Below are positions 41,034 to 63,550 of a stretch of DNA of 64,000 bases, one piece after another. The DNA is from Owenia fusiformis (Eukaryota; Annelida; Polychaeta; Sabellida; Oweniidae), in NCBI GenBank assembly GCA_903813345.2, contig CAIIXF020000006.1, positions 32,434,710 through 32,498,709 on the forward strand. Direction: 5' to 3'. How positions within the stretch are numbered: the stretch's first letter is position 1; each line of letters opens with the position of its first letter. The notes under the pieces were generated by a model, which was not told the DNA's origin, did not search any database, and saw nothing but the letters and a program-made list of their open reading frames with translations. The translations under genes and the position numbers were made by a program.

Positions 41034-41547
41034 TTGTTCCCATGGTTACTTTGTATCAATGACGTGACGTCATGATATTATCATGGTTATTAAAGAAATC
41101 TAATATCAAAACGAGGTAAGCGGGCTATATCGGGGTAATCGGGCAATATCGGTGGATATAGCTCGCTAACTTTCCCATTGACTTCCATACAAATGCTTCG
41201 CTAGGTATGTAATACTGCCTGTAAAACAATCCCTATTCTAACCAATAGAGGAGTTTCTATATAGGTTTGAAGTCACGCTAATTCTAGTTTTTTTCGCGAG
41301 ATGTTAAGAAAGGATAGGTATCGATATGGTGAACTGAATTCAACAATGTTTCGTTTTAAACAAATTATTGAAAACATTCTCACAGGCTGGTATCGAAAGA
41401 TTTGTCCGCTGTGACGGAGCATGCTATTTTTCATAAACACCCTGAGAATGCTTCCCGATTTATTTTTTAACTCATATGTTTCGTTATATCAAATAAAATT
41501 ACTTACTCCATGCAATGGATATATCATTTGCGTGTAACCTTCGCTTA

Positions 41548-41811
41548 CTGTTTGAAGTCCAATAACGCTAGGAGTAAAAGCTATTGAAAACGGCGCCAGA
41601 GTATCAAACTCTAAAATGTACCATTTCTTTTTTAACTTTTTAATGGCATGATATTGTGACACGATAATAATAACCATGTGTAAATATTATCGTGTCACTA
41701 TATCGTGCCAATAGAAAGTTAAACAAGAAATGGTACATTTTGAAGTATGATACTCCGGCGCCATTTTCAATAACTTTTCTTCCCAGCGTAATTGAACTTC
41801 AAACAGGAATG
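41548..41811. repeat. Inner palindrome of element 1
   Basis: Arms 41548-41670 and 41690-41811 are inverted copies (CTGTTTGAAGT, ATTGAAAA.GGCGCC, AAAATGTACCATTTCTT, GTGACACGATAAT). Confidence 0.8.
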
Positions 41812-41875
41812 TTATAAAAACCCTTCGACCTTCGACCTGCACCTTCGACCTTCACCTTCGACTTACAGGGTGTCC

Positions 41876-42511
41876 AAAAAGAAAATATTATAGAAGCTAT
41901 TTTTGCCGATCTCAGACCACGCAAGAGTCACTTGATTTGTGGTTCACAGGTGAGATCGTTAAGATCTTGAATTGTAGCAACGTTTGCAGTACTCTAGGTA
42001 TAGTTACAGGGGTGAAATATAGTTTTCATGTTATCAAATTAAGATTCTGTTGATGTTGATCGGGTAGTCAATCGGGTAGTTTAAATGGAAGTTTCCCTTT
42101 TTAGAACTTACTTCCTGGTTTTGATTCGATTGAATCGAAGTAAGATTAGAGTAAGTAGCGATCAATTACTGTTCTATTTATTGAGTTCAAATCATAGTCT
42201 TGTTGTGTGATCAATATTAAAACGGGATATGGCGTCAATAACTTGTTATTTAACTTTCAAATCTTGTCCGAAAAGTGATGACGTCACCAGGCATATAAAG
42301 TATTTCGCTGATGTAAACTAAAGAGATGACAGCTATAGCTTTCGACGAGGACAGAGCTCCGTTCAATTTCATGAACTATGTGAAGTTTGACTTAGTCGTT
42401 TTTCAAAGAAATATTTTTGGACTTTGACAATTTTCATAAGAAAAGTCAAAGGTGCAGGTCTTCGAAGGGTTTTTATAACTTTCTTTTTGGCCCGCTTTTT
42501 GGATACCCTGT
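41876..42511. mobile_element. Mariner-like MITE between opposed CTTCGACC repeats
   Basis: Ends CAGGGTGTCCAAAAAG and, in reverse, CAGGGTATCCAAAAAGCGGG sit between TA dinucleotides (41874-41875 and 42512-42513). Outside lie CCTTCGACC runs (41818-41873) and their inverse GGTCGAAGG (42514-42556). A third partial copy of the outer repeat occurs inside the right end (42449-42485). No transposase. Confidence 0.65.
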
Positions 42512-43665
42512 AGGTCGAAGCTGAAGGTCGAAGGTGCAGGTCGAAGGTCGAAGGGTTTTTATAACATTCCCTTCAAACAGAAGTGAAAGTTACCCGCAAA
42601 TGATATATCCATTGCATGGAGTAAGTAATTTTCTATGGTATAACGAAACATATGAGTTAAAAAATAAATCGTAAAGTATTCTTAGTGTTCTTATGAAAAA
42701 TAGCATGCTCCGTCACAGCGGACAAATATTTCGATACCAGCCCGTGATTCTGTAAAAAACACGGTCCTTTATGTAATGTTGACTGATTGGGGTTATAATG
42801 AAAACACGCGCTACGCGCTAGCGCGCCACGCGCCACCGCACTAATAGAAAATGATCCTTCCCCCACGATGTGTGCGCATGTTTTAAGCGCATGTTTATGA
42901 TTGGTCTATGTCCTTGGCCCAGGGACATGTATAATTAGGCTTATGATTCCCTGGGAACTTGTCAAAACATTGTCACTTCAGAGGCTGTATAAATCACCGC
43001 TAACCTGTCAATCAGACTTTGATGTGAACTTTGCGGCCGCAGGAGATAATCAAAGCTCTCAAAAATTACACTTTTCAGGTTACGATTTCTCTAGAAATAT
43101 AAGACCAATTATAATGTTCTTCACACCGTTAAAAACAGAATTCAATTTTAATTTAGGAAATAATTCCAAAACTAAATGAACGTGTACTTTTCTCTGTATT
43201 TTACCTGAAAGAACATGAGTAACATGAAAATTAATAATTATTTACGGTCAATTACCGGGCAATGATAAAACACGCTGGTCAGGTTTACAACTTTTCAAAT
43301 CGACTCTTATTTAAAACTTTGATTCCAATCTACATGAAATAAAATGTAATAAAATGAAAATACAATCCTGTTTTTAACAATATTCCTGGTAAAATAGGTA
43401 ATATAATTCACTGGGACTGACGTAATTCCAGACTTTTTGAATCTAAATTCAAATTGAGAAAAACGAAAGCAAACATGAAAGGGGGGTTAATAGGGGTCTT
43501 GGAAATCCATATTCCACACTATTTTTCACCCCTCTTAGTCCATTTACAGTATTTTGAAACTGCTGTTGATAAAAGTTTGGATAATATTCAGAAGGAAATA
43601 ACATAATGCAAGAATCCACGTAGTACCAAATGTATAATCATACGGCAAATACTATAGGCTGTACA

Positions 43666-43783
43666 CAGGCCCGTAGCCAGGGGGTCCGAAGGGTTCCCCA
43701 GTCAAAAATTCTTTCAAAATAAGTGACTTTGGAGTTTTTGAAATAGTGACCCCCCCCCTCGGGAAATCCTGGCTATGGGCCTG
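43666..43783. mobile_element. hAT-like MITE family B, copy 2
   Basis: CAGGCCCGTAGCCAGG at the left and CCTGGCTATGGGCCTG at the right are near-perfect inverted ends, matching 10511-10671. It sits inside the 5.8-kb element. Confidence 0.7.
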
Positions 43784-46765
43784 GCATATGGCATATACAG
43801 ACTACTATAGAGACCTGGATTACCCACATAAATGTGGGACAGATTTTTCAAATCACCTACACAACTACCTGTCTATTGAAATCTTAAAAAAAACGTTGTT
43901 AGTAGTTGACACACAGCTGGATTTTATCTAAATAACCACTAACCCAGCTTAATGTTCAACCCCAGTAATTGTGGAGGTGATTCAGAGAAAAATCAACCCC
44001 AAATTTTTGGGAGTTAGCTGGATCTGTTGTATTCGTTCAAACTGTACTTTCAGTGAAAACAAAGGTTATGCTGGCATAGAGAACATTCATTCAGAGTGTG
44101 ATGAGAGCACCGGATTTGATCTCTACCTATTACCGAATATATAGACTCAATAAAGTAAATGTAAAATTTATTCTGTGAAAATCGACATGGTCATTAAAAC
44201 ACACCCACAGGACATTAGGGGAATCCGAGAAAAATAGGTTATATGTGGTTAGCAAGTCCTTGATTCAGTTTATTAGACCATCGTATTCCAAATCGTGATA
44301 ATAATTGTGATTGAATTATAATGAGCATTATCTGAAAATTTCTGAAAATTCACCATTTTTTTGTGAAAAACGACCAAGATGTAATTCAAACATGGGCAGC
44401 ATTCTTGTGTAAAGATGAACACTATTCAAGAAAACATTATATCCACTCTATTTTAACGAAAAGATTTTACGAAATAACCAGCACGACCCCATCTATGAGC
44501 GAATATGGTGTGAAACTGTGACAATCGACATGCGTGAAAATCGACATGGTTATACCATTGAACTCAAAGCAGTAAATTAGTCATTTGTATAAATCACAGA
44601 TGGATGATTTTGATTTTATATGATTACCGATACTCTGATAACACATTTATAACAGTTTTACGGTATTATACGCATAACGATCAATTGATAGACATTGAAA
44701 AAGTAACAGCTAAAGAGTTTTCTCTTTGTTCAGCGTACCTTTTCCATTTTTATACGTCTTTACAAAAATACGTTACATGCAAGCAGATGTCAAGTTATTT
44801 AGAACTTCCATAAGCATAATTTACTGAAAAATGTTTACTACAAAAATCACTATGAAGACCATTATAGCCCAAAAAGTGTCAACCTCTGTAAATAGTGTTT
44901 CGTTCAGTTCATTCCCGGGGATTGCTGACTGCAATCATAGTCTATTAACGTTTGGAATCAGTTTCCCTTTCAATGAATGCATCATTCTCAATGATGAACA
45001 GCATAAACAGGCATCTCTAATTTGTAATATGAAAGATTTTATAGCTTTTCAACGATGTTTATTTGCTTACTATTTTTAATTCCGATCTGATCTACTACTC
45101 GATACATTATTACAATCTGATGTACAATATTCAGTGTCCCTTCGTGAAACGCAATTCTTTGCAAAACAAACAAAGAAAAACAAAAAGTAAACAATGTTCG
45201 AGAATAAAAAAATCAAAAAATCAAAACATAAAATTACGTTCCTCATTGAAAAATACCGCCGATTGAACTAGCATTATAGTAACATAAAGCACGAGATGCG
45301 CATGCGACGATAGAGGCAACAAAAGCAAGATAATTTTTCCCCTCTTCGAAAAATAAAACCACTAAGACCACTAAAAATATATAGACTTCAAGAGTTTCAA
45401 AGAAAAACAAAACATCAGAAGAAACAAGTTTGATAGCGAAAGTTATGAGATGCGAAATCAGAAATCCGAAAAAGGATCGAGTCTGACACGAAAGAAATTT
45501 GTTTCTCGAAAGCGGAAATTTTAGCGACTAAAACAAAAATCTCAGAATAAACCAAAGCATAGTAATAAAAACACTTCCAGTTGCCATGGAAAAAGGGTTC
45601 TTGTGATAGGAACTTGGAGAGGGAGGGGGGGGGGGGGGTCATCGGCGAAGCGCTCCGCAGATAATGGTGTCAAGAGAAACACCAGTGCAGATAATTTTTA
45701 TGATTGAACTATACGTCATCCTTAATGGACTGGACTCGATATCAATATCATGTTTCAATTGTTAACGTAGACTCGAGTAGAATTAAGATCGGCTTCTTGA
45801 TTTGGAATATGTTAAAAATTGTAAAAACAAGTCAAATAACCATACCTGGTATGTGAGATAAAAAAGAAAACATATGCCAAGGGTGTCAAAAAATTATTTT
45901 GACGACATCGCATCTGTCATCCCATTGTCATTCAATCTAAAAATGTAAATCTTGGTTTCATGAATCAGTGCGATGTTTTGGTAAAGTTGATGTGAAAAGA
46001 ATGTAGAAAAGATGTGTTCAGTGCATATAGACTTTGCGGACGTAATTACGTACATGTACATATACTTAGTTTATTCTCTATGACGATACTTTAGAATAAA
46101 ATGTGAAACACGACAGGGTTTTGACGGAAAGTTTTACATAAACGTGGTCATATTTGGATACAAATACACACTGGTTGTTTCTCAGTTCAGCTTGTTATAT
46201 CCTACATATCAAAAATGTCGATTCGTGAAGTTAACGGTCCATAAAGTGAACTTTCCAACTCATTGTCATTTGTTTCTAATTGTCTTGTGAAAATCGACAT
46301 GCGGATGAATAGTGAACTAGCCTAATGATCAATTCTTCCCAAATAAAACTGTTATCATTTTCTTATCGTCTTAAGCATCATTTTTCATGATCGCATCAAT
46401 TCATGTTTCAATAGAGTCGACCCTTTCAATTTAATTCAAATGAAAAACAAAAGGGAAGTTAAAAATTGAGAAAAACGATAGATTTTATTGGTTCATGTTG
46501 ACAAAGTGATGCACATCAAAAAGAAAAAGCTTGCAGTCCAAATCTATTTGCGATTTTAAAGGACAGTTAAGTACCATGAGGAACGTTGAAAATGATGCAT
46601 TCTAATTTGAATAGCTTGACACATTAATCAGGGGTCAAGGTGTGAAAATCGAAATGTTTGAGACGGACCCTAATTTCAATTTGAAAATTCGCCTATTTTT
46701 CCTTGGAGTTTACTTTAATGCTTTGGGTAACGAATGTACAAATGTATGCAGATATATACTTTATA
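43784..46765. other. Unassigned interior of the 5.8-kb element
   Basis: No gene was recognised. The word GTGAAAATCGACATG or a close variant occurs at 44175, 44534, 46287 and 46642, with related GACAATCGACATG at about 44520. A long G run is at about 45620-45638. Short frames (44604-44813, 44831-45079, 45063-45266) have no domain. Confidence 0.45.
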
Positions 46766-47811
46766 CAGGGCGTTCATAAAGTTCTTGCAAAAGTACTCTA
46801 AAATTTTTGTATCTCAGTCAATGTGACTGAAATTTTCACTCAGTATACCTACACTATTCATACATTGAGATCCAAAGTTATAATTAATCAGTCCTTGAGG
46901 AAAAAAAATTATGGTTGTTATAGTCACATGAGTCAGGGGTAGGCGGAGCAGGCAAAAAAGGATATGTTTTGTTTGGATGTTCAAAATGTTTTTACTTGTC
47001 CTATTTACTTTAATAACAGTATCCCAAGAGTATAGGTGTTCAAAATAGTGTCCATCGTGGTCTATACACCTTTGCTGTCTTACATACCATTCCTCAAATA
47101 TATGGGGGAACCCTGTTGGAAAATCTATTGCGATTGATCTTTGTATGGATGGCTTTTACCAACGTCATCTGATCCTCACTGGATTTCGTTCTTGGACGGC
47201 CTGATCTAGCATTGCCTTACCATTTGTTCTACCATCAGTATAAATGTCTTAGTCCGTTTTGTAAATGGTTCTTTTGGCCATAGCCTACTTCCAAAACACC
47301 TTATGAATATCATCAAGTGTTTGTTTTCTTGAATTTCCCAGTAAAACATACATCCCAATGCTACTGATTATTTGTAATTGCAATTCATCATCGTTTGCTG
47401 ATTTTGCAGTCATTTCCACAAAAATAAAATTAACGCTGCCTTTCACAAAGTCCAATGTTATCAACCAATATAGGACACTATGATAGTGATTTTATGAATC
47501 AAAGAAATTTCAACTATGATGTCAACATATGATATCTTATTGTTGACGTGGCAACATTGGCTAGTTTTGTATTTTCAAGGATACTTTAAAGTATGTTAAA
47601 GTTACCTCTAACCCATATTTTTTATCTAAATTTTTCTTTTTTTCAATGCTGCTCCGCCTACCCCCGACTTGTGTTACTCTAGCAATCATAACTTTTTTCT
47701 TCAAGGACATATCCATTATTATTCAAGATTCAAATATATGAATAGTGTAGGTATACTGAGGGAAAATTTCAGCCAGATTGATTGAGAAACAAAAAAATTA
47801 GAGTACTTTTG
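46766..47811. mobile_element. Mariner/Tc1-type element, internally deleted
   Basis: The left end CAGGGCGTTCATAAAGTTCT follows TA. About 190 bp are mirrored at the right (TACTCT, TCAGT.TACC, ATAGTGTAGGTATACTGAG, GCTGCTCCGCCTACCCC). The outermost right end has decayed. It contains remains of a minus-strand transposase. Confidence 0.8.
46999..47413 (-). pseudogene. Mariner/IS630-type transposase remnant
   Basis: On the minus strand an ATG at 47411-47413 begins about 42 codons (ends 47285) with an HTH-like start, SIGMYVLLGNSRKQTLDDIH, and a stop. Downstream, in other frames, are MAKRTIYK, YTDGRTNGKAML, QERNPVRIR and finally WYVRQQRCIDHDGHYFEHLY, which resembles the C-terminal end of such transposases. 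The catalytic DDE/D middle is missing, so this is a dead, deletion-bearing copy. Full-length relatives are about 340 aa. It acted by cutting its own inverted ends and inserting at TA. Confidence 0.7.
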
Positions 47812-48490
47812 AAAAAAACATTTTAGGATTTTTTTCACTTTTTAACAAAATTTATTTTACACTTAAGCGGTTTTGAGTGCTTTAAATTTTATAATAGGCT
47901 TCTTTAATTCTTTTAAAACACATATTAAACTTATACGATACCATATACGATAAATGTTGCCCCCTCTTATGCAATCATATACAATAAATTTTCACCTTCC
48001 TCTTTTACGATAACCCTATACACCCCCCCCCCCCTTATGAAAGCGAAAGAGTGTAACCGGGCACAATAAGAAAAATGGAAAGAATATAAATGCGATGCCT
48101 GAATTAACTGTTTGGTAAGTCATGTAAGATATAACTTCAAATACAAAGAGTAAAGATATATAAAACATCAAGGACTTGAAATAAAGAGGTAATATGCGAC
48201 AAATATACATCATATTAAATCATTAGTCAAGTTATTTCAGTCGGGCCCCCGGCTCAGATTTCGAAACGGGATTTTTCAATGCAATGAAATAGTGAGCATA
48301 TTCGCATATCTGCGACCATTCATCTTGTAAGTTGCTACTCTATCTTCCTTTTAAATCAGATAAAACACACTGACAAGCGACAATCTTTGCACAGTTAACG
48401 ATCAAACTTTACATTGGGCTTCTTCATAACTTCTCTTTTCTGATACGCCACCTAATCTCTTCACTTACACGATCTTTATACATGTTCCCG
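47812..48490. other. Unassigned interior of the 5.8-kb element
   Basis: Repeated ACGATAA words around 47930-48010 and a C run at about 48021-48034. No gene was recognised. Confidence 0.4.
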
Positions 48491-48733
48491 GGCCTGTGGG
48501 AACGATCATTCTGAACAGCGCGTTAGTGCGCTAGCGCGTTCGCGCGTAGCGCGTGTTTTCATTATAACCACTGATTGGCAACAATTTAATGCAAAAATTA
48601 TTTACATATATTTATATAACTGTTTTTGTTAAAAAAATTTGTTTTTTAGTGCAATTGTTTTTTGTTCCTTTTTACCAATTCTTGAGAATGAAATAAAATG
48701 TCTTTCCAAACCTTGTTGGAACAAAATAGCATA

Positions 48734-49194
48734 CAAATGCTCTAATTTCAAGAGATTTACCTGTTATGCGATGAAATTTTTCCAGAATGTTGAAAGACAT
48801 TATAACAATATATCCAACTGTCATGACTTTCAGTTTCAAAATGAAAAAGTTATGGTTGTTATGGTAACAGGAGTCGAGGGTAAGTAGAGCAACGTCACAA
48901 CTGTGTTCTACAAATCTCTTTCCTGCTCATATGATCTTGGCACTCCACCATCTATTCCTATATTATATCAAATTATGTACCACAACAGCATAGGGCTTAG
49001 TAATGTAACATTATTTGATCATTTTATATTCCTACTATCATTGAATATTCAGTATTTTCCCCATTATCTATACATTCTTGGTGCATCTTGACCGGCGATT
49101 CAAAGACCTGACAGAACCGATGCTGCCCATCTCTCAGATTGCTTTCCAGCTGAGTCTCATTTGTATGTTGAACTTTTTACAAATATCGTATATA
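48734..49194. mobile_element. Insertion within sequence F
   Basis: Absent from the unbroken F copy at 18 kb. It contains AAAAGTTATGGTTGTTATGG and GAGTCGAGGGTAAGTAGAGC (about 48845-48893), a relative of the subterminal sequence of the mariner relic at 46766. Exact ends are unclear (ATACAA occurs near both borders). Confidence 0.5.
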
Positions 49195-49224
49195 CAACAT
49201 TTTCTTAGACCTCTCAATATTATA

Positions 49225-49614
49225 CAGGGTGTCCGTTACGTTGCTGCTTACGTTTGGACAACTAAAAATTAATGGCATTTTCGTACCTATCTTTGGGACC
49301 AGGTAGATATTTGAAGCTGTCAAGCAAATGACAAATAATTTTAACTTTATACGCATTATATCTAAAACAAGTGTTTCACAAAATCTCATGGTATAAATTG
49401 GATACCAAGCGTATAAATAAACCGTGTTTTTAAGCCTGGACGGTGAAGATACTTGACGTAAATATTTTGTAAGATCCGCAGGACTTTACGTTCGTCGTAA
49501 AGTTACGTTTGCTTTATGAATACCAAAATAAGTTTCCGCAATACGATACGTTGACGTAAGTCATACGTTGGCTTTATGAATAAGGCTTCTGAATAGCAAA
49601 TCAGACACGAGTAT
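49225..49614. other. Single mariner-like end, then unassigned DNA
   Basis: CAGGGTGTCCGTTACG follows TA inside sequence F, as a mariner-type left end would. No matching right end was found. Repeated TTACGT/ACGTAA words lie at 49455-49570. Confidence 0.45.
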
Positions 49615-49753
49615 TTACATCCGAGAGCTCCAATAATCGAGTAAGAAAATCAACACAACACAAACAAGACATTATGAAATTCACCAGATAAAGGTAATAT
49701 ATATTTTGCAAGTGGATCCAAGAGACCAAGTGGGCGAGTAAATTATTTTGCAT
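49615..49753 (-). repeat. Inverted-pair repeat, left copy
   Basis: CAAGTGGATCCAAGAGACCA and AGTGGGC, plus GAGCTCCAATAATCGA, are mirrored at 52088-52207. The pair brackets the Tigger-like element and the orphan frame. Confidence 0.6.
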
Positions 49754-49811
49754 GATACACACATTTCAATTTGGTATACGTATAGTGAATTCCCAGCGAT
49801 TGATTTCAGTA

Positions 49812-51256
49812 CAGTAAAACTGTCACAATGAACACCTCTTTAGTGAAGATCTGTGCCCAATGAACACATATGTCTACTCTATTGAACACCTGTGTGTAAG
49901 CGAACACCAATTCCCAGCCAGTAATTTCAGTAACTTTTAGAAGGGATTGTACCTACAATAAAACCTTTCAATCCGAGGGACCAGCTAAAAGCGTTCGGAT
50001 TGGGAGGTGTTCACATTTTGAGGTTTTGCAAGATTTTGGATTTTGAAGAAAGAGGAACAAATTCTCAATAAATATTTATAGTTTTTTTGTCTACATGGCT
50101 TCATGGTATTACAGTGACATGAAAATCCGATTCAAATGAATTGAATTAAGTCATCCTATAGTGTGTCTCAAAAAATGTTACACTTACAAAAAGTTCAATA
50201 TCTTTCATGATTTTGACTTTTCCCCTAAAATATACTTAGATACCATAAGACCAGTCTTTCTCAAATAAATTCACACCATCAGATTCAAAATCCGTCCAAG
50301 ATTGGCTGCACAGGACAGATTTTATAGACGCATGTGAAATCTGATTTGCGCCAACTTCTCAGTGGCTGGACATGTGGTGATCAATTTTTTTGGTGTGAAT
50401 GCTGTGAACAGTGATATCTTGATATGATCAATGATCCAGTTGTTTTATTTCCTGGATAGAAATACAAGATTTCATTGTCAGAGTGTTCAATTTTGTTATG
50501 ATGGCAACAAGATGGTGCAAATGCCTGTGGCAGATCGTTTGGTAAAACTCTTTGGAAATTAGAAGATTGATATTACAATTCATGCGCGCATGGGCAAGGG
50601 TACCTCAAGTTTAATTTGGAGAACATGTTGAGGGGACCACATGTTTATGTCTTATACCCAATGATCATATGTAAGACAAATAGGAAAATTACATAATGAC
50701 TCAGTTTAAGGTCAAGCTTCTACTCAGAAGAAAGTTAAATATTAAAGAAACTGTTCCTCTTTTTTCATTTGGTCAATCCAATCACTTAGAATTTGGCGCA
50801 AGTCAGATTTTACCATGGGACACTAAAAGCTGTCATGTGGAGCCAATCAATGACAGATTTTGAATTTGATGGTGTCAAATTATTCGAGAAAGATTTGGCT
50901 TTTGGTATCCAAAGTATATTTTAGGGAAAAGTCAAAATTATGAAAGATATTGAACTTTTTGTGAGTGTAACATTTTTTTGAGACACTCTGTAGAAAGCCC
51001 CACCATGAGTGAGATCATTCCCTTTTTTTCAAATATTTAAGCAATTTTGTATGGAACATGTTATATTTTATGAAAAGTGTTCAGATTAGATTTAGATTAT
51101 ATTTCAAACATGACTGTTCACTGTTCAAATTGGGAGGTGTTCACATTTCACGTTTTTTTAAACATTTGAGTCATTGGGAGGAAAAACGGAACCCAAAAAT
51201 GTTAAAATTGGGAGGTGTTCGGATTAGCCAAGTGTTCAGATATACAGGTTTTACTG
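49812..51256. mobile_element. Tigger/pogo-like DNA transposon, non-autonomous
   Basis: Left end CAGTAAAACTGTCACAATGA and right end, in reverse, CAGTAAAACCTGTATATCTG, each next to TA (49810-49811 and 51257-51258). GGGAGGTGTTC / GAACACCT words recur inside both ends. CAGT-AAACC ends with TA duplication are known for pogo/Tigger elements. It is split by a nested mariner-like element and no transposase was seen. Confidence 0.75.
50159..50990. mobile_element. Mariner-like element nested in the Tigger-like element
   Basis: GTGTGTCTCAAAAAATGTTA at the left and its inverse at the right continue through AAAAAGTTCAATATCTTTCA and GGTGTGAA/TTGACACC-type words, giving long inverted ends (about 150-200 bp). 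TA lies at both borders. Interior 50360-50750 has no recognisable transposase. Confidence 0.75.
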
Positions 51257-51415
51257 TACTACAATTGTTTCCAATCTTTTGGAGGAAAGTGTACATCATT
51301 CAAGAGAAATGACAGGTGACACACTGCCATGGGAACTGGTCAAATCAGATCTTCCCACGCTTTACGTCAAGCAAAAGAGGTCATTTCCCAGGATTATAGA
51401 TGAACCCTTGGCCAA

Positions 51416-52877: not shown

Positions 52878-52977
52878 TTGTTCGAAAATATTGAACAATT
52901 ATTGCAACCGATTAGGCCTACTAAGACATTGTTCGAAAATAACAACTGTTTACCGATTAGGCCTACCAGAACATTTT
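52878..52977 (+). repeat. 50-bp tandem pair
   Basis: CATTGTTCGAAAATA and CCGATTAGGCCTAC occur in the same order twice. Confidence 0.7.
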
Positions 52978-53103
52978 AACCGAATAAGACCATATAATAC
53001 TAAGAGTTGACAAAACTGCAGCGTTGTCTACAAGGTGGGCATCGGCACTACACTATTACCAATACATCCTAAGGGTGAGCAAATTCTATTTATTTAATGT
53101 GGT

Positions 53104-53753
53104 TTGTTGTCTACGATTACGATCAATGTTCTGATTTTTGGTCACTCCCTAGTAAGTCAACTTCAGAAATACTCCTCGAAATTTAAGCAAAGAACCAATC
53201 TGGGTTTGAGTTTCCAGGATTGTTTGGTGAGCTTTAAAGGTGTAAGAGGGGAAAACTTGTTGGTGATAATTGGGGAAGCCATCAGTTTAAAAGTATGAGG
53301 GCTTACATTTGTGAGTCGGTTGCTTATTTATCTCCAGAAATAGTTTATTTGCAAGTCGGAGGAAATGATTTAGATAACTACGATTGTACGGTAAAGCAAC
53401 TTGCTGTAGCAATTTCGAGTTTATCCGAATTCCTAATCGAATGCCATGGTATCAAGGCTGTGTGTATTGGTCATTGTTTTATCCGTCTTAAAACAAAACG
53501 ACAGGATTATATATCAAGGCTCTACAAGTTACATTACCTGCCGAAACATCCCTCCATCCATATCGCTCAGAACAGAAGATTCTTTGAAGATCCAGGCAAA
53601 TACCTTTGGATTGACGGCATTCATCTTTCAGATGACGGGAATAAAGTTTTTACCACACATGGCGAACACTGCCGAACACTCACAACTACTCCCATGAAAG
53701 ACATGCGTCGAAATCTGTCCTTCATTGTTCAATGCCCCACTTTATTAATTTAA
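53104..53753 (+). pseudogene. SGNH-type hydrolase, frameshifted
   Basis: Two overlapping frames together spell one SGNH/GDSL esterase-like domain: VLIFGHSLV (nucleophile Ser block, about 53140) in the first, then after a frame change near 53290 PEIVYLQVGGND (oxyanion-hole Asn block, about 53358) and WIDGIHLSDDG (Asp-His block, about 53613) in the second. All three catalytic blocks are present but cannot be read in one frame, so the gene is broken unless an unseen intron or sequence error explains it. SGNH domains of this kind are found in host genes and also in some retroelements, including tyrosine-recombinase (Ngaro-type) ones. No reverse transcriptase or recombinase lies next to it, so its origin is open. 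The real start is unclear: the first frame opens after a stop at 53095 without an ATG. Confidence 0.75.
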
Positions 53754-54957
53754 CTGATTACGTACGATCGTTTCTTTTTGTCATTTGATTTCATCCTGGC
53801 TGTCTGTTTTATTCCGCCAAGGTTAAAAAGCAAGGGACTAAAATCACAGCTTCATTTAAACCAAAAACTCCAAACCGGAGGCATTTTTAAGTCCAGACTA
53901 GATTGTGTTCCTTGGTACAATATTATAATATGTAACTTAACGTATGACATTCGGGACATGTGTTTAAAACAGAAAACAGCTTACAGAACGAGAATAGCCA
54001 ACCTCCTCTATTTCGTAACATTTTGTCAAAGTAACTAGAAATAGTTGTGAAACAATAAATACTAGCGTTACTTATAGTAGTACACTCGCCTCCAGCAACC
54101 TTTAGCCCCTTTTATTGGACGTGTTAAAGCCTTTCATGTTTGAGTTGTAGAGAAAAAAATATTTGTAGGGCTGCAGATTTCCAATTCCTCACTTTTCTAA
54201 GTTTTCGCTATTAACAATTAGTCGGAAATTGCCACAAATCATGTAACGTACAGAATATGCATCCATCCGAAGTTCTACCAAAAATATATTGAGTTAATAA
54301 ATAGAAAATTGAATTTAACTTTGTTGAACACAAAATTGTTATCTCCTTCGAAAATATTGGGACAGTTCGGAGGTGCAGAAAATAAAGGAACCAGTTGGGG
54401 AGTTAAGGCTGTCAAACCTATAGGGGGATGTATGATATTGAAAAATAATGTATCCTTTTAAAAACAAATGTTAAAAGACATAGAAAAGGTGTCCATTCGT
54501 CTGTACTTTTTTCAAAATACCTGTTCATTTGTAATTGTCTGTTCGGCTAATAACCCGATGATCGGATCTAGTACAGAGGCCAATAATTTCTTTCATCGGT
54601 TTGCCCCTCTTGATTTTATCAGGACCGCCCACGTCAGTGGGTCATCTTCACTGGAACCAGACTATATTCTTGTCCGACGCAGGAGAGAAATCATAATATC
54701 AATACTTTTGCAAATGCGGCGTTCCCCTTTTGCTTTTGCAAATGTTGAAAATTGAATGCGATTGTAACCCCGGGAGTGTAACATTGCTCAGAGGGACTCG
54801 ATCCCTTAAAGTCTCCGATAAATCGGACTACGTATACCGCCGTGTTTACATTAGGGGATTAGAAAAGTTTATTTTTATTTAGGTATGCAAGCAATATCAA
54901 TATTAGGCCTTCATGCATGTACTCGCGTGTACAATCAGCATGCCCTTCAATATTATA
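53754..54957. other. Unassigned
   Basis: Frames at 53778-54038 and 54468-54755 (plus) have no recognisable domain. They may be 3' remains of the SGNH-bearing unit. Confidence 0.35.
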
Positions 54958-55571
54958 CATGGTGGGCCAAAAAAAACGCCACTTTTTTTCAAGCCACTAT
55001 AACTTTTTTATTTTCCAACCTACATACCCCAAATTGTGCAGTTATATAGTGCCAAGGGTTCTTAGTAATGTAACACGTCCTTCAACTGGGATTATATTTG
55101 ATGTAAAAGAGGAGTTCAATTGGTCCGCCACTCCATTTGTTGATAGATTTTAGTTTTAGCCGCCTTGCTGATATAGCAGTATCAATGAAATGTTAGCTAT
55201 ATTTTTTTCAACGTGTCTTAATTGCCAGCTTTAGTTAAGTAATTTTTTAGATTGGGTGCCTTCATACCATCTCCTGGAGACCTCCCCATACCCGATACTC
55301 ACTTGGGTTTGAATTAGGGCTATTAGCTTGCGGTCATCAGGGCGTATCAGTTTAGGAACATTATGCAAATTATGCCTATTTCTCATGGCACACCACATGG
55401 TTAAGTGAGACGCTGGTGACATATTTTATTCCAGTAAAATTGTATAATTCATGATCAATGGCTAGATAACAACCTCAAGTTTCATTTGGTATGTAAATTA
55501 TGATTTTGTATCAAAAATTAAAAAAGTTATATAGCATTTTGAAAAAAGTGGCGTTTTTTTTGCCCACCCTG
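54958..55571. mobile_element. Mariner-like element, 614 bp
   Basis: Left end CATGGTGGGCCAAAAAAAAC and right end, in reverse, CAGGGTGGGCAAAAAAAACG share GCCACTTTTTTTCAA and TATAACTTTTTTA (about 55 bp). TA lies at both borders (54956-54957 and 55572-55573). A 63-aa minus frame inside is not a recognisable transposase. Confidence 0.8.
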
Positions 55572-55877
55572 TATAAACCAGGCTATTCAAGTACTACATA
55601 ATCTACTTCATCTACAAAGTATATCTAATAGTAATTTTCAATTTCAATGGTGAAACTTGCCTGGTTACGATTATTCGGGAAATCAACACGGGACGAAGAT
55701 TGTTCACCTTCCTGACTTACCTCTGAAGCCTGTACCTTGTAATCTCTTTATATAGGTTAGCGAGAGCGCTGCGCCTGCGCAGTTTTAAACTTTGGCGCAC
55801 ACTTTAAAACAATTGGACCACAATTTCATTCGTACCTCATTATCATCTGGTCGCAAATAGTTGCGATGCGTGATACT
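55572..55877. other. Unassigned, perhaps the outer end of a Harbinger element
   Basis: GTCGCAAATAGTTGCGATGC near 55850 resembles the GCGAT/TCGCAA words around 56380-56450 and 57735-57900. Confidence 0.4.
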
Positions 55878-56368
55878 GGAGAGGTTAAGCTACCGTATAA
55901 AATCCAAAACGCAACTTAAACGTATCAATCGGCCCTATACAAATACATGTAGAGTTCACACATAAATAGCCGTTCAGCTCTAGTGTTTGTTTAGACTACA
56001 CCATAGCTTGTAATGATTAACATAGTATCCCATTGATGAAGTTCAATAGCTGGTTTTCTAATACATATTTTAAACGAGCTCGTTTCGTAAGATTATTGGA
56101 GTTAAATCATGCGTAACATACATCATCTTCTTCAGAAAGAATTATACTCTGCATCGAAATCAAAATTGCAAGGATAGTATTCAACAGACATGAGTATAAT
56201 GATTTCCGTTGATAGCAACGTGGAAATTTAAAATCTCCCGTTCTAAACACGCAACTTTGAAGTTGAACGGGTATCTGAAGTAGACTAAAGCGATACAATC
56301 CTATGTTGATTCAATGTACTTTGCGTTTACGTATACGTTTTGAAAAACCGTATTTGCTTAACCTCTCC
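55878..56368. mobile_element. MITE with GGAGAGGTTAAGC ends
   Basis: GGAGAGGTTAAGC at the left and GCTTAACCTCTCC at the right are exact inverses, with TACGGT/ACCGTAT and CAAAACG/CGTTTTG words just inside. No target duplication was obvious. It interrupts a region rich in TTGCGAT/ATCGCAA. Confidence 0.65.
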
Positions 56369-56628
56369 ATTATCAATTGAGCGCAATCGCAGACGCAAAG
56401 CAATCGCAAAACAATTAAAACGTAAGTTGCGATCGCAAGTGTAGAGTGTATTTTGGCGCGAAATTTAAAAGGACACTGGCGCTAGTTTTTGACATTGATT
56501 GATTGAAATTGATAGAAATCCAATAATTGATATGATTTGATTGGTTGCGCATGCATTACACTTGTGCAAGACATAAGTGCGCCAAAATGCAAATCGATTT
56601 ACATTGAACAGACGGTAGTCGGAGAAAC

Positions 56629-56775
56629 ATGTCGAGGGCAAGGAATTGGACAAATGATGAACAAGAATTATTAGTATCTCTCATTGAGAAGGATGCAAAT
56701 ATTATTTTGGCACCACTTAGCTGTCAAATAACAATACAGTCACAGGATAGTTGCTGGGCAAGGGTAGCTGAAAAA
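56629..56775 (+). pseudogene. Myb/SANT-like DNA-binding protein of a Harbinger element (partial)
   Basis: An ATG at 56629 begins MSRARNWTNDEQELLVSLIE then KDANIILAPLS and SCWARVAEK, a trihelical Myb/SANT-like domain of the type encoded beside Harbinger transposases, with the expected tryptophans (W7 and the late W). In PIF/Harbinger elements this partner protein binds the transposon ends or helps the transposase into the nucleus. After about 49 residues the frame degenerates into unrelated sequence and stops at 56916, so the copy is truncated or an intron border is unseen. It points away from its usual partner, whose fragment lies at 57091-57339 on the minus strand, so the two coding pieces converge. 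Confidence 0.65.
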
Positions 56776-57090
56776 AAATTATTTTCCTTTGGAACAAAAT
56801 ATGAAACACGTCTTTTGCATTGTGATCAAAGCAAATCATGTTTGAATCAGGGTCGGGATGAAAATGTGAAAATCTACAATTTTGAGACGAACTCTCATTT
56901 CAAATTGAAAATCTAACTCTTTCCGACGACTCAACTTCAATGCGATGGGTGATGCTTGAACAACAGATACAGAGTACATGTCTATGTAAAAAAGAAAATC
57001 GTGCTTTTTCATTTTTAAACTATCAAATTTAACAACTTAGTAATTTGCAGTGATATGCATTTATTCTATTATGTAGAATTAACAACGTTT

Positions 57091-57339
57091 CTATTCATAT
57101 TCAAACTCGATCAAATAAAATGTGATCAACATTTTTAGAAACCCCGGGATGAAATGATTGTTCCTATTCTTTGGTGTCAGTTCGTCTTCAAAAAGGTTTA
57201 TAACCTCTATTAACAATGCTTTCGGCATTCTGTATCTCTGGAGCATCTCGATGTCATTTAGTGAATCGAGTGGGTTAAACCTATCTCGAAATACTCTTCG
57301 GCCAATACGATGGTGGTGATCCAGAATGAAATGAAACAT
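57091..57339 (-). pseudogene. Harbinger (HARBI1-like) transposase N-terminal fragment
   Basis: Starting from an ATG at 57339 it reads RVFRDRFNPLDSLNDIEMLQ, RYRMPKALLIEVINLFEDEL and IPGFLKMLITF, the conserved N-terminal region of HARBI1-like transposases. Only about 80 codons remain of the usual 350 or so; the DDE nuclease domain is absent, so it cannot be active. The normal role is excision and insertion of the element at a 3-bp target. Confidence 0.75.
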
Positions 57340-57905
57340 CTTGGTGTTCTTGTACTTTTGCAGACGATGTAGGTAAGGTACATATACACTAGGAATACTC
57401 AGAACATTAGTGTAGTAGTGGCAAGATTAATTCACCAAACAAGCTTTATTAGCTAGTTAAATATTTAATTGGCGAAAATCCTATGCTCCAAAGAGCACGA
57501 AATATTGCAGGCGTATACAGTATGTTGCGTTCGCAATATTAAGAAACAAACGTGATTTTTAAGGATTTACAGGCTCAATTAAATGTATATTTTAATCATA
57601 TTAAATAAATAAAATTGAACAATTTCTTCGATACTATTGATTAATACTTAATAGGTAGTGAAATGACCGATATAAAACACCACAAAATATCCATTAACAT
57701 AGATAAAATAACGCTCAAAGATGAACTAGATTTGCGATTTGATTTGCGACAGGGTAAACGTCGTCGCAACTTTTTGTTTAGTAGCGATCAGAAAATCGAT
57801 AACTTTGCGTCAGACTTGCGATGCGATGGAATGATAATAACATTTTTGGGAAATAGTTGCGTTGCGATGTCTTGCGATGCGATTCGCATGCGATTTTGCA
57901 GCGTT

Positions 57906-58235
57906 TTAACCACGTGGACTTGGATGTGAGAGTTGTCTCTCCACAATAGGAGGTATTGGCAATTGAGGTTAATTACTCATGTTAGGGGACTGATTTTTCC
58001 CCACCAGTAATTCATGAATGAAACATTGATATGAGGTCAATTTTAGGTTTTATTAGCTTCATAATTACATCATGGAAAACCATCTACTAGAACTACTGGG
58101 AGAGATTGCTCTCAAATCCGATGCCCACGTTAGTTTTTTGTTAATTTTTTATTTTATTGAATATTTGAGGATTGGGAGTAGTAAAAATTAACAAATCACA
58201 TTATTCAGGATGTAAATACACCGTAAAGGGTAAAA
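57906..58235. other. Unassigned
   Basis: A short frame from the ATG at 58072 ends at a donor-like GTTAGT (58129) after 19 codons, but its phase does not match the zinc-finger exon at 58945, so no gene is called. Confidence 0.35.
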
Positions 58236-58301
58236 TTAAATGTGTATTTCACCCAATCCTTTACATGAAATCTACTTGAATGTATGGATGTCACTTAGGA
58301 A
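58236..58301 (+). repeat. Flanking direct repeat, left copy
   Basis: GTATTTCACCCAATCCTTTA through TGTATGGATGTCACTTAGGA recurs almost exactly at 61152-61218, outside the palindromic element. It overlaps a perfect 16-bp stem hairpin (58287-58302 with 58309-58324). Confidence 0.85.
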
Positions 58302-58324
58302 ACATAGATTTCCTAAGTGACATC
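58287..58324. repeat. Perfect 16-bp stem hairpin
   Basis: GATGTCACTTAGGAAA, a 6-nt loop CATAGA, and its exact inverse. The right-hand direct repeat at 61.2 kb lacks the second arm. Confidence 0.85.
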
Positions 58325-58383
58325 TATATTATTGAGTAGAGTGAATGTTTATTCTAAATCACGGGATGTCATCGCCTGATTTG

Positions 58384-58779
58384 GTCAATGTTAGGGAGCA
58401 GGTCGTTTTTACAATAAATTTCAATATTTTCACACAAAATATTTTTTACTGAAAAACTGCTCATTCGCAGAGAAAATGTACTAGCACATGCAATGACAAT
58501 GTCAATCACGCTTCTGTACGAAATTCGGCGGAAGTCTTTTATAATCTAATACGAAGTTACTAAAAAAGGCGCGAACGCCCTACACTCAAAATGATCGTTT
58601 TTCCATTATAACTTTTTAACGTAATTTAACGAAGGCTTCTAATTATTATCCAAGATAGTCTAAATACCGATTAAAATATTTCTTACTTCAAACAGATACG
58701 CCGTCTTTTATTCAATTTTTTAAAAAATAATAAAAAATAACTCTTGTCAATGTTAGGGAGCAGTCAATGTTAGGGAGCA
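58384..58779 (+). repeat. 17-bp motif GTCAATGTTAGGGAGCA, left arm (3 copies)
   Basis: Exact copies at 58384-58400, 58746-58762 and 58763-58779 (the last two in tandem). Inverse copies are at 60567-60583, 60584-60600 and 60947-60963. This is a candidate protein-binding site of the element. Confidence 0.9.
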
Positions 58780-58944
58780 AAATGATTTTATCAGAATATT
58801 AAAAATGTAGCAAATGGCCATTTAAAATATGTATGGCATTTATAAACTAAACAATATTGTTTGAATGATTATTTTAAACCCCTTGCCTTAACAAAATTTA
58901 ACAAAATCGATAAAAAAATTGTTTTGCATTTTTGTTATCTTCAG

Positions 58945-59132
58945 AAAATGAACTCTCAAAGATTTTTGACGAAGGAAAGTTACGCTGCTTCAAAACAAAA
59001 CATTACTTAAACGTTCACAAGAAGCTTGTTCATGGAAACACGTTATTCAAATGTCCACATTGTTGTAAGGAGTTTAAATACCGAGCAACCTTACAACGGC
59101 ATATTAAAACGAATCATTCTTCAAACATGTAA
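58945..59132 (+). CDS. C2H2 zinc-finger terminal exon (partial)
   Basis: After a pyrimidine-rich stretch and AG (58943-58944) a frame runs 62 codons to a TAA. It encodes half of one finger (HYLNVHKKLVH, lacking its Cys pair) and one complete finger, FKCPHCCKEFKYRATLQRHI with KTNH (CxxC-x3-F-x5-L-xx-H-x4-H). There is no in-frame ATG near the start, so it is best read as a 3' terminal exon whose upstream exons are missing or elsewhere. The splice acceptor sits within the diverged end of the palindrome arm; the opposite arm has a similar TTTTCAG but no zinc finger after it. It may be a captured host exon or an element protein. The expected role is DNA or RNA binding. Confidence 0.6.
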
Positions 59133-59381
59133 GATAGCGTAATAAATGCGCAGCTGCAGTTGCTAGCTAGCTCATGATCTAGTAGCATGAAATGTAATGT
59201 TTTGTTATTTTAAAAATTATGTCTCCCCTGAACTGTAAATTTCAAAAATATTCTCAATAATTCCATGATAATTCATTCATATAATTACTGTAGTACATTG
59301 GAAAGTGAAATAAGTAGCTTGCACGGTGGATATGGATGACGCAGTCCAGCCACGTACTGTATGTGTAATCCCAGGTTAATA

Positions 59382-59457
59382 TATAGGGTGTCCCCAAGTC
59401 TGCAAGTGAGCCGCTTTTTGACAATTAAATTCATTCAAAACTTAAATAAAGTAGCCT
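59382..59457 (+). other. Mariner-like single end
   Basis: TATAGGGTGTCCCCAAGTCT resembles a mariner-type terminus; no partner was found. Confidence 0.3.
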
Positions 59458-59971
59458 TAAGCCCAGTATACACCAATGGGGCAAAATCCCACTTGCCCAT
59501 CGAGTCCGATCTTGCCCTATCGAATCCGAACTTGCCCCAATGAGTCCAACGGAGTCCCATGGTTGATGACTTTGCCCCATCAAGTCCCAACGTGCCCCAT
59601 CGAGCCCCATGGAGTCCCATCAAATCCCACCTTGCCCCATTGGTGTATGTTGGGCTTCACATAACATGTGACCTGATCGGAAATCCCACGATGCCCCATG
59701 GAAAGAATGAACATGTTCATTCTCGATGGGGCAAGATGGGACTCCGTGGGATTTTGCCCCATCCTGCCCCATCGAATCCCATCGAGTCCAACGTGGGACC
59801 TCATGGGACTCGATGGGGCAAGATTATATGCAAGTTGGGGCAAAATCCGACGGAGTCCCATTGATTCCCACGGACTTCATGGGGCAAAATCCCAAAAGGT
59901 CCCACTAGGTCCCACGCCATGTTAAGTCTATGGAGGTCCCAACTTGTCCCATTGGTGTATACCGGGCTTTA
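59458..59971. mobile_element. Foldback element of GGGGCAA/GGGACTC repeats
   Basis: The left end TAAGCCCAGTATACACCAAT is mirrored at the right (ATTGGTGTATACCGGGCTTTA), and a third end-like copy (ATTGGTGTATGTTGGGCTTC) sits at 59638-59658, suggesting a composite of two units. The interior consists of short palindromic blocks (TGGGACTCGATGGGGCAAGA and inverses). Long open frames on both strands are repeat artefacts. It lies in the centre of element 2. Confidence 0.75.
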
Positions 59972-60566
59972 GAGTATCATTAGCAAGTGGTACACATATA
60001 ACAGAGATCGGTTATATACTGCATTGTCTGAGTATTGACAAATTGAAGTATACGTGTAAAAATCTACTATCATACATGTAACTGCGCAATGAGCCCTTCA
60101 TAGCGTTTGTGCCAGCTATCAGGTGATACCCGGTCGTAAAGATAAGTGCGAGACTAACTCTCTTACTTTAATACTAGGAAAATATCAAATCATAGAACTG
60201 AAGGATGTCGGAGATTTCTCAAGCCTATATATCAGTTCAGATAATTTATCATCCACAATTTAGGATTGTGAACTGATGACATCATCAAAAAGTGTATATA
60301 ACGATACATCCATTCATTTACAGTTAGAGGTCAACGAATAAAGAAGGAATGGTTCGCATCTAAATATTTCTAAAACGAACGTAAACAGGATTTAGCTGAA
60401 AATAAAAAATGCAAAATAACCTTTTCAATGATTTTCTTACAATTTTAACGCTTTCCTCCCCAAAGGGTATCAAATAATCATACAAACAAAATTGTTCAGT
60501 TTATAAATGCCATACATATTTTAAATGGCCATTTGCTACATTTTTAATATTCTGATAAAATCATTT

Positions 60567-60963
60567 TGCTCCCTAACATTGACTGCTCCCTAACATTGAC
60601 AAGAGTTATTTTTTATTATTTTTTAAAAAATTGAATAAAAGACGGCGTATCTGTTTGAAGTAAGAAATATTTTAATCGGTATTTAGACTATCTTGGATAA
60701 TAATTAGAAGCCTTCGTTAAATTACGTTAAAAAGTTATAATGGAAAAACGATCATTTTGAGTGTAGGGCGTTCGCGCCTTTTTTAGTAACTTCGTATTAG
60801 ATTATAAAAGACTTCCGCCGAATTTCGTACAGAAGCGTGATTGACATTGTCATTGCATGTGCTAGTACATTTTCTCTGCGAATGAGCAGTTTTTCAGTAA
60901 AAAAATATTTTGTGTGAAAATATTGAAATTTATTGTAAAAACGACCTGCTCCCTAACATTGAC
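60567..60963 (-). repeat. 17-bp motif, right arm (3 inverse copies)
   Basis: TGCTCCCTAACATTGAC at 60567-60583, 60584-60600 and 60947-60963, the exact mirror of the left arm. Confidence 0.9.
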
Positions 60964-60992
60964 CAAATCAGGCGATGACATCCCGTGTAAAT

Positions 60993-61151
60993 AGGGAATA
61001 CGAGGGAGGTAGTCATTAGCGAATGGAATGGATAATAGTTTACATATCATGAAATTTGGATGAAATATCATGGAATTGGGAAATGATTGAAAAATAAGTT
61101 ACCCTCCCACCCAACCCATTTCCTGAGGCTGTACATTCTGGTGGGTTTCAC
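60993..61151. other. Unassigned
   Basis: Between the palindromic element and the right direct repeat; nothing was recognised. Confidence 0.4.
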
Positions 61152-61218
61152 TTAAATATGTATTTCACCCAATCCTTTAACATGAAATCTACTTGAATGT
61201 ATGGATGTCACTTAGGAA
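61152..61218 (+). repeat. Flanking direct repeat, right copy
   Basis: Matches 58236-58301 with very few changes. Confidence 0.85.
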
Positions 61219-61963
61219 CTGCATAGACATCTTATAAATTACCGCTAGTGACAAATTGAATGATTGTATTTTGATTTTCACTTTACAAATATTACATACA
61301 ATCCTGAGGTTACAACAAAGACATATAAAACTGTTTTATATGTCTGTACACAAAGACAATGGGATATGATGTAGTTTCATGTTACCAGGTTTATCAATCC
61401 TATAGTCACTTCACATACAAAAACGTATTTCTCATTTATCAATCACCAAAATATTGCTGGGGTGTACATATAATTTTGATTGCTGTTAGCTAACCGCGGG
61501 ACGCACAAATTAGCTCGATCACAATTTCTTTGATAATGAATTGAGCTGTATGCCAAAACTAATTAGGTGCTTTCCCAAGTAGGAATTCACCAACCAGAAA
61601 ACGTACATATTTGAAGTAAGATATGCACACTGGCATGTAGCGATTATCCCGGGGCGATTATAGAGAAACAGAATACTTTACTGAATCGTGTCGAAGTTAG
61701 ACGTGTGGTGCGGAAGTTAATATGCAGATGACCATCATTTCAATGTTATATTGTTTGTAGGCAAATTGAGATTAGGCCATTGGAGTATTTGTTTCACGCA
61801 TACATAAAGCATAACGCATTCAAGGGTCACATTTATCATTAAACCAATAACTCAAACATATGACCTTGTACACCGACCACCTCTTGAAATTAATGCAGGC
61901 CGATTTCAACGGATGCAAACGGTGATATATAAAAGAAACATATTCAAGCATGACCACGTCCCA
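61219..61963. other. Unassigned
   Basis: AT-rich, no gene recognised. Confidence 0.4.
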
Positions 61964-62370
61964 CACGGGTAGTATCTAAAGCCCCGCTATGATCTAAAAG
62001 TCGCGTGCAAGTTCCCGCTGAAATCGTGAGCATAGTCCTGTTTATTTGTATCACTTTAGAAAATGAACCAAAAGGATGAAAATACTTATTACCGTTCTTT
62101 GATACTCAAGCAAAACTTTGAAAACAGATATATTTGACAAAAAATGACATGAAAAATGATTATTTTTCACTTGCATGAAGGAAAGAGGGTCAACATGCAC
62201 GTTTGCATAATTTACTATTCATATATTACCTTTATCGTTAAAATAAAGGCAATAAATACAATTTACGTACTCCATAATAAATATCGGATCAAGGTGGTCT
62301 ATATTGATAAGTTACTGGACAATTACACCTGCCATGGGGGTTGAAATACTTTATTAAAGGTGTTCCAATG

Positions 62371-62438
62371 GCCCCGCTGAAAACACGAGGAGGCCCCGCT
62401 GAAAACATGAAGAGACCCCGCTGAAAACACGAGCAAAT
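62371..62438 (+). repeat. 23-bp repeat, three units
   Basis: GCCCCGCTGAAAACACGAGG and two close variants in tandem; the inverse form (TCGTGTTTTCAGCGGGGCC) recurs at 63047-63146. It is not a CRISPR array: the units adjoin without spacers and the setting is eukaryotic. Confidence 0.85.
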
Positions 62439-62640
62439 TTCACGACTACCCGCTTCGATCACGAGGAAAGACAACATCACAAATATTTCTTCTTCATCTT
62501 CAGGCAGTCTATTCCATCTGTCAGCGGCATGATCAACTTTTTTTTTGTAAATAGACTTTGTACATTTCAGAGTTAATTAAACAATTCTACATACTTCACT
62601 GTTCCAAGGAGTATACTTCTGAGGACACATATATTTCTTT

Positions 62641-62990
62641 GTCCGACCGTTCATTCGTGCGTGCGTTCGTCCGACCGTTCGTTCGTTCGTTCGTGCGTGC
62701 CTTCGCCTGACCGTGCGTTCATCCCACGGTCCGTTCGTTCATGCGTGCGTTCATCCGACCGATTGTTCGTTCGTGCGTGTATCACCCGACCATCCGTTCG
62801 CGGCAGTGTTCGTCCGACCGTCAATGTGTTCGCTCGTGCGTGCATCCGTTCGTGCGATCGTCCGTCCGTTCGTGTGGGCATGCGTTCGCCTGGCCGTCCG
62901 TTTGTGCTTGCTTTCGTCTGACTGCCCTTTCGTTCGTGAGTGCGTCCGTCTAGCTGTCAATTCGTGCTTTCGTTCGCCTGTCCATTCATG
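62641..62990. repeat. CGTT/CGTG/CGTC tetranucleotide-derived satellite
   Basis: About 350 bp made of GTTCGTTCGTGCGTGCGTTC-style words with CCGACC interruptions. It is rich in CpG and open in many frames on both strands (Arg/Thr/Ser-rich), which is a repeat artefact. Confidence 0.9.
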
Positions 62991-63550
62991 CGTGCGGGAA
63001 ATTTTCGGGGTATAATCGGGATTCGCTTCATTTTTGAGAGACACTTGCTCCTGTTTTCAGCGGGACCTCCTCGTGTTTTCAGCGGGGCCTCCTCCTGATT
63101 ACAGCGGGATCTTTGCTTTATTGCTCCTGCTAGAAGCGGGGCCTCGAGGGATGTGATAAAATGTAAATATAAAATGTTCTGTAAAGCTTTTGGAAGTGAA
63201 ACTCGGTACATCTTTATTTCATATCACTATCGTTATTTCAACCACAGCACAACATCGTTCTTCACCAATAACGTATAGAAATATATAGATAAAGATTCAA
63301 AATGATACTTTCTCTCTTCAATTGACAAATAACGAACCACAGAACGACCGCTCGTGAAACATTTTTTCCAGCAGTTGCTTTTTTTAGTCTCAATACCATG
63401 TAATCATTGGGATTAATTAAAAGAAAACGTTTTGTAAATCATACAATTCAAGTAAACAAAACATAACCCATGACTTTTTATTCCTCGTGATTTCAGCGGG
63501 AACTTGCTCGCGACTTTTAAATCATAGCGGGGCTTTAGATACTACCCGTG

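Follow-up and report, generated by a model that had tools for sequence, protein, structure and literature searches.

The 64,000-nucleotide stretch of the Owenia fusiformis genome analyzed here (assembly GCA_903813345.2, contig CAIIXF020000006.1, forward-strand positions 32,434,710 to 32,498,709; hereafter the window) carries three elements, E1, E2 and E3, that look unlike each other and yet have the same CAC(A/G)GG...CCCGTG ends and 5-bp duplications. This raises the question whether they are related, and what kind of transposase could have moved them. We consider it likely that E1-E3 are non-autonomous DNA transposons with terminal inverted repeats (TIRs) that are moved in trans, and that E1 and E2 are of the foldback type and belong to one family. 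This assessment refers to the family level and not to the superfamily, which is discussed separately below. Papers are cited by their PubMed Central numbers, and statements attributed to them rest on extracts of these papers.

The coordinates, the terminal hexamers and the exact duplications ATTCT, TAAAT and TCCCA given in a preliminary description of this DNA were all borne out by a check of the sequence (Table 1). The window contains 14 CACRGG and 11 CCYGTG sites, which form 24 pairs at a spacing of 30-8000 bp. An exact 5-bp duplication flanks three of these pairs, which are E1, E2 and E3, where about 0.03 would be expected. The terminal bases of the two ends are identical at 28/30, 30/30 and 30/30 positions in E1, E2 and E3, respectively. 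A relaxed search of the window admitted any CAC..GTG ends at a distance of 60-6000 bp. Of the 40,471 pairs, 9 combined a 5-bp duplication with identity at 9 or more of the 16 terminal bases; E1, E2 and E3 scored 15, 16 and 16 of 16 and the remaining six pairs 9-10. At the same loose threshold, 32 pairs were found with duplications of 4 bp, 6 with 6 bp and none with 7 or 8 bp. When all 64 terminal trinucleotides were allowed with 5-bp duplications and low-complexity tips were removed, four pairs reached at least 15/16, namely the three elements and one pair within the arms of E2. TIRs and an exact duplication of constant length, the marks of a TIR DNA transposon, are thus present in 3/3 elements. 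Chance or artefact was set aside as an explanation of three exact duplications accompanied by tips that match at 28-30 of 30 positions. The tip pattern CACRGGNTGNNATC was not in excess in the window when up to two mismatches were allowed (23 matches, equalled in 6/100 shuffles); without mismatches it occurs only at the two ends of E1 and the two ends of E2, and the tip of E3 fits it only with a one-base gap.

Table 1. Positions in the window of the three elements, their duplications and their internal features.
Feature	Position	Strand	Remarks
Element E1	41381..42746	.	ends CACAGG/CCCGTG
E1 target-site duplication, left copy	41376..41380	+	ATTCT
E1 target-site duplication, right copy	42747..42751	+	ATTCT
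E1 left part: outer arm and inner palindrome	41381..41805	+	
Nested element in E1	41806..42570	.	765 bp; 9-bp duplication CTTCAAACA at 41797-41805 and 42571-42579
E1 right part of outer arm	42580..42746	-	
Element E2	58360..60987	.	ends CACGGG/CCCGTG; found by inverted-end and duplication search
E2 target-site duplication, left copy	58355..58359	+	TAAAT
E2 target-site duplication, right copy	60988..60992	+	TAAAT
E2 left arm	58360..58944	+	585 bp; aligned with right arm
Tandem pair of 17-bp unit GTCAATGTTAGGGAGCA in E2	58746..58779	+	further copy 58384-58400; mirrored at 60567-60600 and 60947-60963
Last-exon-like stretch in E2	58945..59132	+	AG acceptor-like site 58943-58944; C2H2 zinc finger; stop 59130-59132
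Probable nested element in E2	59460..59968	.	509 bp; inverted ends 26/29 bases; 3-bp duplication TTA
E2 right arm	60396..60987	-	592 bp; aligned with left arm
Element E3	61964..63550	.	ends CACGGG/CCCGTG; found by inverted-end and duplication search
E3 target-site duplication, left copy	61959..61963	+	TCCCA
E3 target-site duplication, right copy	63551..63555	+	TCCCA
Four inward-facing copies of E3 unit CCCGCTGAAAACACGAGGA	62373..62467	+	fifth copy 62014-62032
Three mirrored copies of E3 unit	63046..63108	-	fourth copy 63482-63500

Nested insertions were located by searching for inverted ends with flanking duplications. Such an insertion, a separate 765-bp element, makes up most of what had been taken as the interior of E1. 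It is MULE-like by the length of its duplication, MULE duplications being 9-10 bp. When this element and one copy of its duplication are removed, the 592 bp of E1 that remain form a single imperfect palindrome, in which the halves are identical at 260/293 aligned bases. The pairing runs throughout both halves, which is the architecture of a foldback element, and the arms are about 294 bp long rather than the roughly 175 bp estimated before the nested element was set aside. The inner 249 nucleotides (41557-41805) gave a folding energy of -80.4 kcal/mol as single-stranded DNA, compared to a mean of -19.2 for shuffled sequences (0/200 shuffles as good). To the right of E1, at a distance of 44 bp, a 5.8-kb element (42791-48569) begins. 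Its inverted ends read GGTTATAATGAAAACACGCGC and its duplication is ACTGATTGG, exact over 9 bp; it is also MULE-like by duplication length, and its longest open reading frame (ORF) with a start codon encodes 92 amino acids.

The arms of E2, previously put at about 500 bp, measure 585 and 592 bp and are identical at 565/580 aligned bases with 17 gap columns. They account for about 1,177 of the 2,628 bp of the element, and the foldback architecture is therefore present in part. The claim that the elements have unrelated interiors proved wrong for E1 and E2. With their tips in register, 24-25 of the 41 bases that follow the hexamer agree, a level reached at 4 of 127,918 positions in the window, which are both ends of E1 and of E2. 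The arms were compared using the left arm of E2, with 200 shuffles per comparison. The right arm of E1 aligned over about 260 bp with a score of 77.5 against a shuffle maximum of 43.5, and the left arm of E1 scored 67.5 against 42.5; after removal of the first 60 bp these scores were 54.5 versus 39.0 and 50.5 versus 45.0, respectively, and in none of the four cases did any shuffle do as well. Judged from these alignments, E1 and E2 belong to one foldback family, within which they have diverged, and their arms are homologous. E2 is probably the younger insertion, since its arms are more alike (565/580 versus 260/293) and E1 has been hit by another element, although conversion between the arms could give the same picture.

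The outer arms of E3 are 62-68 bp long, in agreement with the earlier value of about 66 bp, and identical at 63/68 bases. E3 consists of these short arms and mirrored units and does not have a foldback architecture. Its tip shares CACGGG, GTATC and AAA with E1 if a one-base gap is allowed, and clear sharing with E1 and E2 is limited to the terminal 17-18 bp (CACGGG and about 11 bp that include the gap) and does not extend to the arms. The alignment of the right arm of E1 with the left arm of E3 exceeded all 200 shuffles (41.0 versus a maximum of 38.5).

Inward-facing units repeated below the tips are a further feature of E2 and E3. All six matches to GTCAATGTTAGGGAGCA in the window (up to 4 mismatches) lie in E2, three inward-facing on each side, and all are exact. 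For CCCGCTGAAAACACGAGGA (up to 5 mismatches), 9 of the 10 window matches are in E3, five on the left side facing right and four on the right side facing left. The corresponding unit of E1 has two matches in the window, one in each arm. It resembles the copy of the E3 unit in the TIR (7/2000 shuffles as good) and the E2 unit (37/2000), and the E2 unit does not resemble the TIR copy of E3 (844/2000). The similarity between units of different elements suggested by these comparisons is weak. The mirrored units of E2 and E3 look like transposase binding sites, by analogy with the hAT element Hermes, in which BED domains bind subterminal repeats (PMC10368747).

Between the arms, E2 carries a stretch that resembles a last exon and encodes a C2H2 zinc finger. 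The stop-free stretch matched zinc-finger families in Pfam (best E 3.2e-05) as well as ADNP_N, all below the curated cut-offs. Reading it as an exon is tentative because the open frame extends past the AG on the upstream side, as far as 58914, and because E2 contains 7 AATAAA hexamers, of which that at 59141 is one. The zinc finger may derive from a host exon that the element captured, or it may be the last part of a transposon gene. The similarity of the E2 arms ends at an AG splice-acceptor-like site on either side, at 58944 and 60396. The 509-bp segment further inward is probably an element nested inside E2, with the reservation that a 3-bp duplication by itself could be due to chance; from this duplication we take it to be Harbinger-like. 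In E3, a stop-free stretch gave a Pfam match to Dumpy_DPY with an E-value of 0.38, below the curated cut-off.

None of the elements has an intact transposase gene, the longest stop-to-stop frames being 85 amino acids in E1, 106 in E2 and 130 in E3. Mobilization would thus depend on a DDE transposase encoded elsewhere, or on several close relatives of one, supplied in trans. Such an enzyme would recognize the terminal 15-18 bp and probably the subterminal unit as well, excise the element together with its arms and insert it across a 5-bp stagger in a cut-and-paste reaction. The arms may grow in two ways, through inverted duplication and through the subterminal unit being repeated in tandem. In cleavage by Hztransib and RAG the flanking DNA is left with a hairpin, and the same is said of Hermes (PMC6941560). 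Because hAT and Transib/RAG enzymes both cut in this way, a flanking-DNA hairpin would be expected with either candidate.

Several observations weigh against this family-level reading. Within the 64-kb window neither a transposase nor a further copy of E1, E2 or E3 was seen. The Pfam comparison covered seven stretches, two in the elements and five other ORFs, which is a small part of the window, and with two element stretches covered a transposase remnant could be missed. The arms of E3 did not align better than expected in three of four comparisons (right arm of E1 with right arm of E3, left arm of E2 with left and with right arm of E3), which were equalled in 51, 111 and 84 of 200 shuffles, and the E1 unit matched the tandem unit of E3 no better than chance (518/2000 shuffles as good). 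Because its arm and tandem-unit matches are mostly no better than those of shuffled sequences, E3 may use another transposase. The earlier proposal that one machinery mobilizes non-autonomous elements is supported, for E1 and E2 by homologous arms in addition to the shared tips and duplication length, and for E3 by tip and duplication length only.

Further searches were confined to the window or to microbial and viral sequences. When each element was compared with the window by BLASTN, all matches up to E 0.01 lay inside that element itself, and two end profiles found nothing in the window outside the elements below E 0.2. Pattern scans of the viral_contigs collection gave three stretches for one pattern and none for five others; by eye, the three show no resemblance to the elements beyond the pattern itself. 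In genome_contigs (bacteria and archaea), one scan gave no stretch and another gave 9. The nine were taken as chance matches, since 2-10 of the 24 bases next to the pattern agree with E1 or E2, compared to 16 between E1 and E2. These collections hold viruses, bacteria and archaea and not animals, and are uninformative on copies in the host genome.

If one enzyme is responsible, to which superfamily could it belong? The preliminary description noted that CAC ends with 5-bp duplications are known for Transib and RAG-related elements, and the link to these rests on the two features. A transposase of this kind would represent a lineage whose recognition motif is CAC(A/G)GG and not the usual heptamer, which is compatible with the family-level explanation. 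CAC is the first triplet at 6/6 ends and 5-bp duplications occur in 3/3 elements, and the tip is conserved over a length similar to that in Transib, RAG-like and ProtoRAG elements. The CMCT clade (EnSpm, Mirage, Chapaev, Transib and Plavaka) generally has CA..TG ends, as found here, although as a whole it makes duplications of 2-5 bp (PMC12730594). Non-autonomous copies are known among RAG-like elements (PMC7204232), and the long arms do not count against Transib/RAG, since long TIRs are described for Hztransib (PMC1852546). However, the usual heptamer CAC(A/T)(A/G)TG is present at 0/6 ends, and in this respect it was rightly remarked earlier that CACGGG departs from it. The consensus CACTWMCAAACKTYKBB of protostome RAG-like elements is also unmatched, its A-block at positions 8-10 being found in 0/3 elements (PMC7204232). 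The duplications contain G or C at 4/15 positions, in contrast to the GC preference of ProtoRAG, Transib and RAG (PMC8289069) and to the duplication of Hztransib itself, GCTCG (PMC1852546). With three duplications this is weak evidence: the probability of 4/15 or fewer is 0.33 at the composition of the window, 0.009 at 60% GC and 0.0007 at 70%. Within the CMCT clade, we know of a 5-bp duplication length only for Transib. No RAG1- or RAG2-like gene was seen, and there was no RAG1 match among the seven window stretches compared with Pfam, a small part of the window. A survey of molluscs identified one Transib element (PMC10294476), and "Transib" in combination with "CACGGTG" returned nothing in the open-licence literature. 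Altogether, a Transib/RAG-like enzyme is unlikely and not favored. hAT5, which also makes 5-bp duplications, fits at least as well.

For hAT5, a hAT group with 5-bp duplications (PMC12730594) that has been named in the mollusc Lymnaea (PMC6128900), the BED domains of the transposase would bind the subterminal units, and this too is compatible with the family-level explanation. The repeated units in E2 and E3 recall the Hermes repeats bound by BED domains (PMC10368747). The hAT element Mar starts with CAG(G/A)GGTAGGC (PMC3517528); E3 has the same base at 8/9 positions from the tip and at 8/11 overall, and E1 at 7/11, including the A/G at the fourth base. Mar duplications are 8 bp, unlike those observed here, and its third base is G where the present elements have C. 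No hAT5 terminal sequence for comparison was found in the extracts of open-licence literature on hAT5. The general hAT tip consensus YARNG has a purine at its third base, in contrast to C at 6/6 ends here. An assignment to hAT5 is in our view a tentative possibility, somewhat short of an even chance. It is possible, if rather doubtful, that the enzyme belongs to neither group. MULE and Ginger2 fall within this last share. Ginger2 elements have TG ends. Duplications of 4-10 bp are described for MuDR together with IS256 and of 4 or 5 bp for Ginger2 (PMC10045372), so that a length of 5 bp would be compatible with both. Kolobok was set aside in view of its TTAA duplications and 5'-RR ends; in its KolobokP lineage the duplications are 3-5 bp long, but the long terminal repeats are direct (PMC9587614).

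The foldback architecture itself calls to mind Galileo of the P superfamily, in which long, variable and internally repetitive arms are extended by tandem repeats and recruited inner sequence, with little coding DNA and with nested elements inside (PMC4168063). As in Galileo and other foldback elements, the arms make up a large part of the element here and nested elements are present. Galileo, however, makes 7-8-bp duplications with the consensus GTATTAC (PMC4168063), dissimilar to the 5-bp duplications in 3/3 elements, and membership of the P superfamily is very improbable. A different view is that two transposases act, one on E1 and E2 and another on E3, and that the shared tip and duplication length arose by chance or convergence. 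The negative arm comparisons of E3 described above, which include both of those with E2 and one of the two with E1, would agree with this, as would its tandem unit, which is unlike the E1 unit, and its TIR copy, which is unlike the E2 unit. On the other hand, E3 has the hexamer, GTATC and AAA in common with E1, the duplications of the two are equally long, and the alignment of its left arm with the right arm of E1 surpassed 200/200 shuffles. We regard two enzymes as improbable. There is also a small chance that the elements represent a new transposase lineage, which would be characterized by a CACRGG tip, a second block about 10 bp inward (NTGNNATC in E1 and E2, TAGTATC in E3 with the one-base gap), a repeatable subterminal unit, 5-bp duplications without GC preference, and arms that grow by repetition of the binding unit. 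"CACGGG" in combination with target site duplication returned nothing in the open-licence literature.

The remainder of the window holds other repeats and a few coding sequences. An 852-bp element at 1629-2480 has a 10-bp duplication GTTTCTAGAT and ends GGTCGCGAG, and at 33223-34104 two minisatellite blocks built of TTCCCATTTCGCCCC units face each other (33223-33638 and 33759-34104). Tandem arrays are found at 4658-5507 (190-bp unit, 4.5 copies) and 21686-22535 (351-bp unit, 2.4 copies), and matches spaced 1,086-1,093 bp apart at about 23500-26000 may reflect tandem copies of a unit of about 1.09 kb. An ORF at 30786-31571, which matches GIY-YIG weakly (E 0.0047, below the cut-off), was read as Penelope-like. 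The minus strand encodes a leucine-rich repeat protein with an acidic tail in one 900-amino-acid frame (36905-39607), and an ORF at 53238-53753 matches GDSL/SGNH hydrolases with an E-value of 3.3e-05, just above the Pfam cut-off. No matches were obtained when the window was compared with Rfam at gathering thresholds or scanned with ARAGORN using the bacterial code.

The comparison of E1 and E2 illustrates that nested insertions can mask a family relation, since a single foldback family here includes two elements of unlike appearance. What the enzyme would add depends on its affiliation. A hAT5 transposase would provide a thinly described group with a terminal signature and subterminal units. 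A new lineage, should one be involved and prove RAG-like, would amount to a CAC-end system under a new heptamer rule. A RAG-like transposase that acts on a CACRGG tip would broaden current knowledge of the end rules out of which antibody-gene recombination arose.

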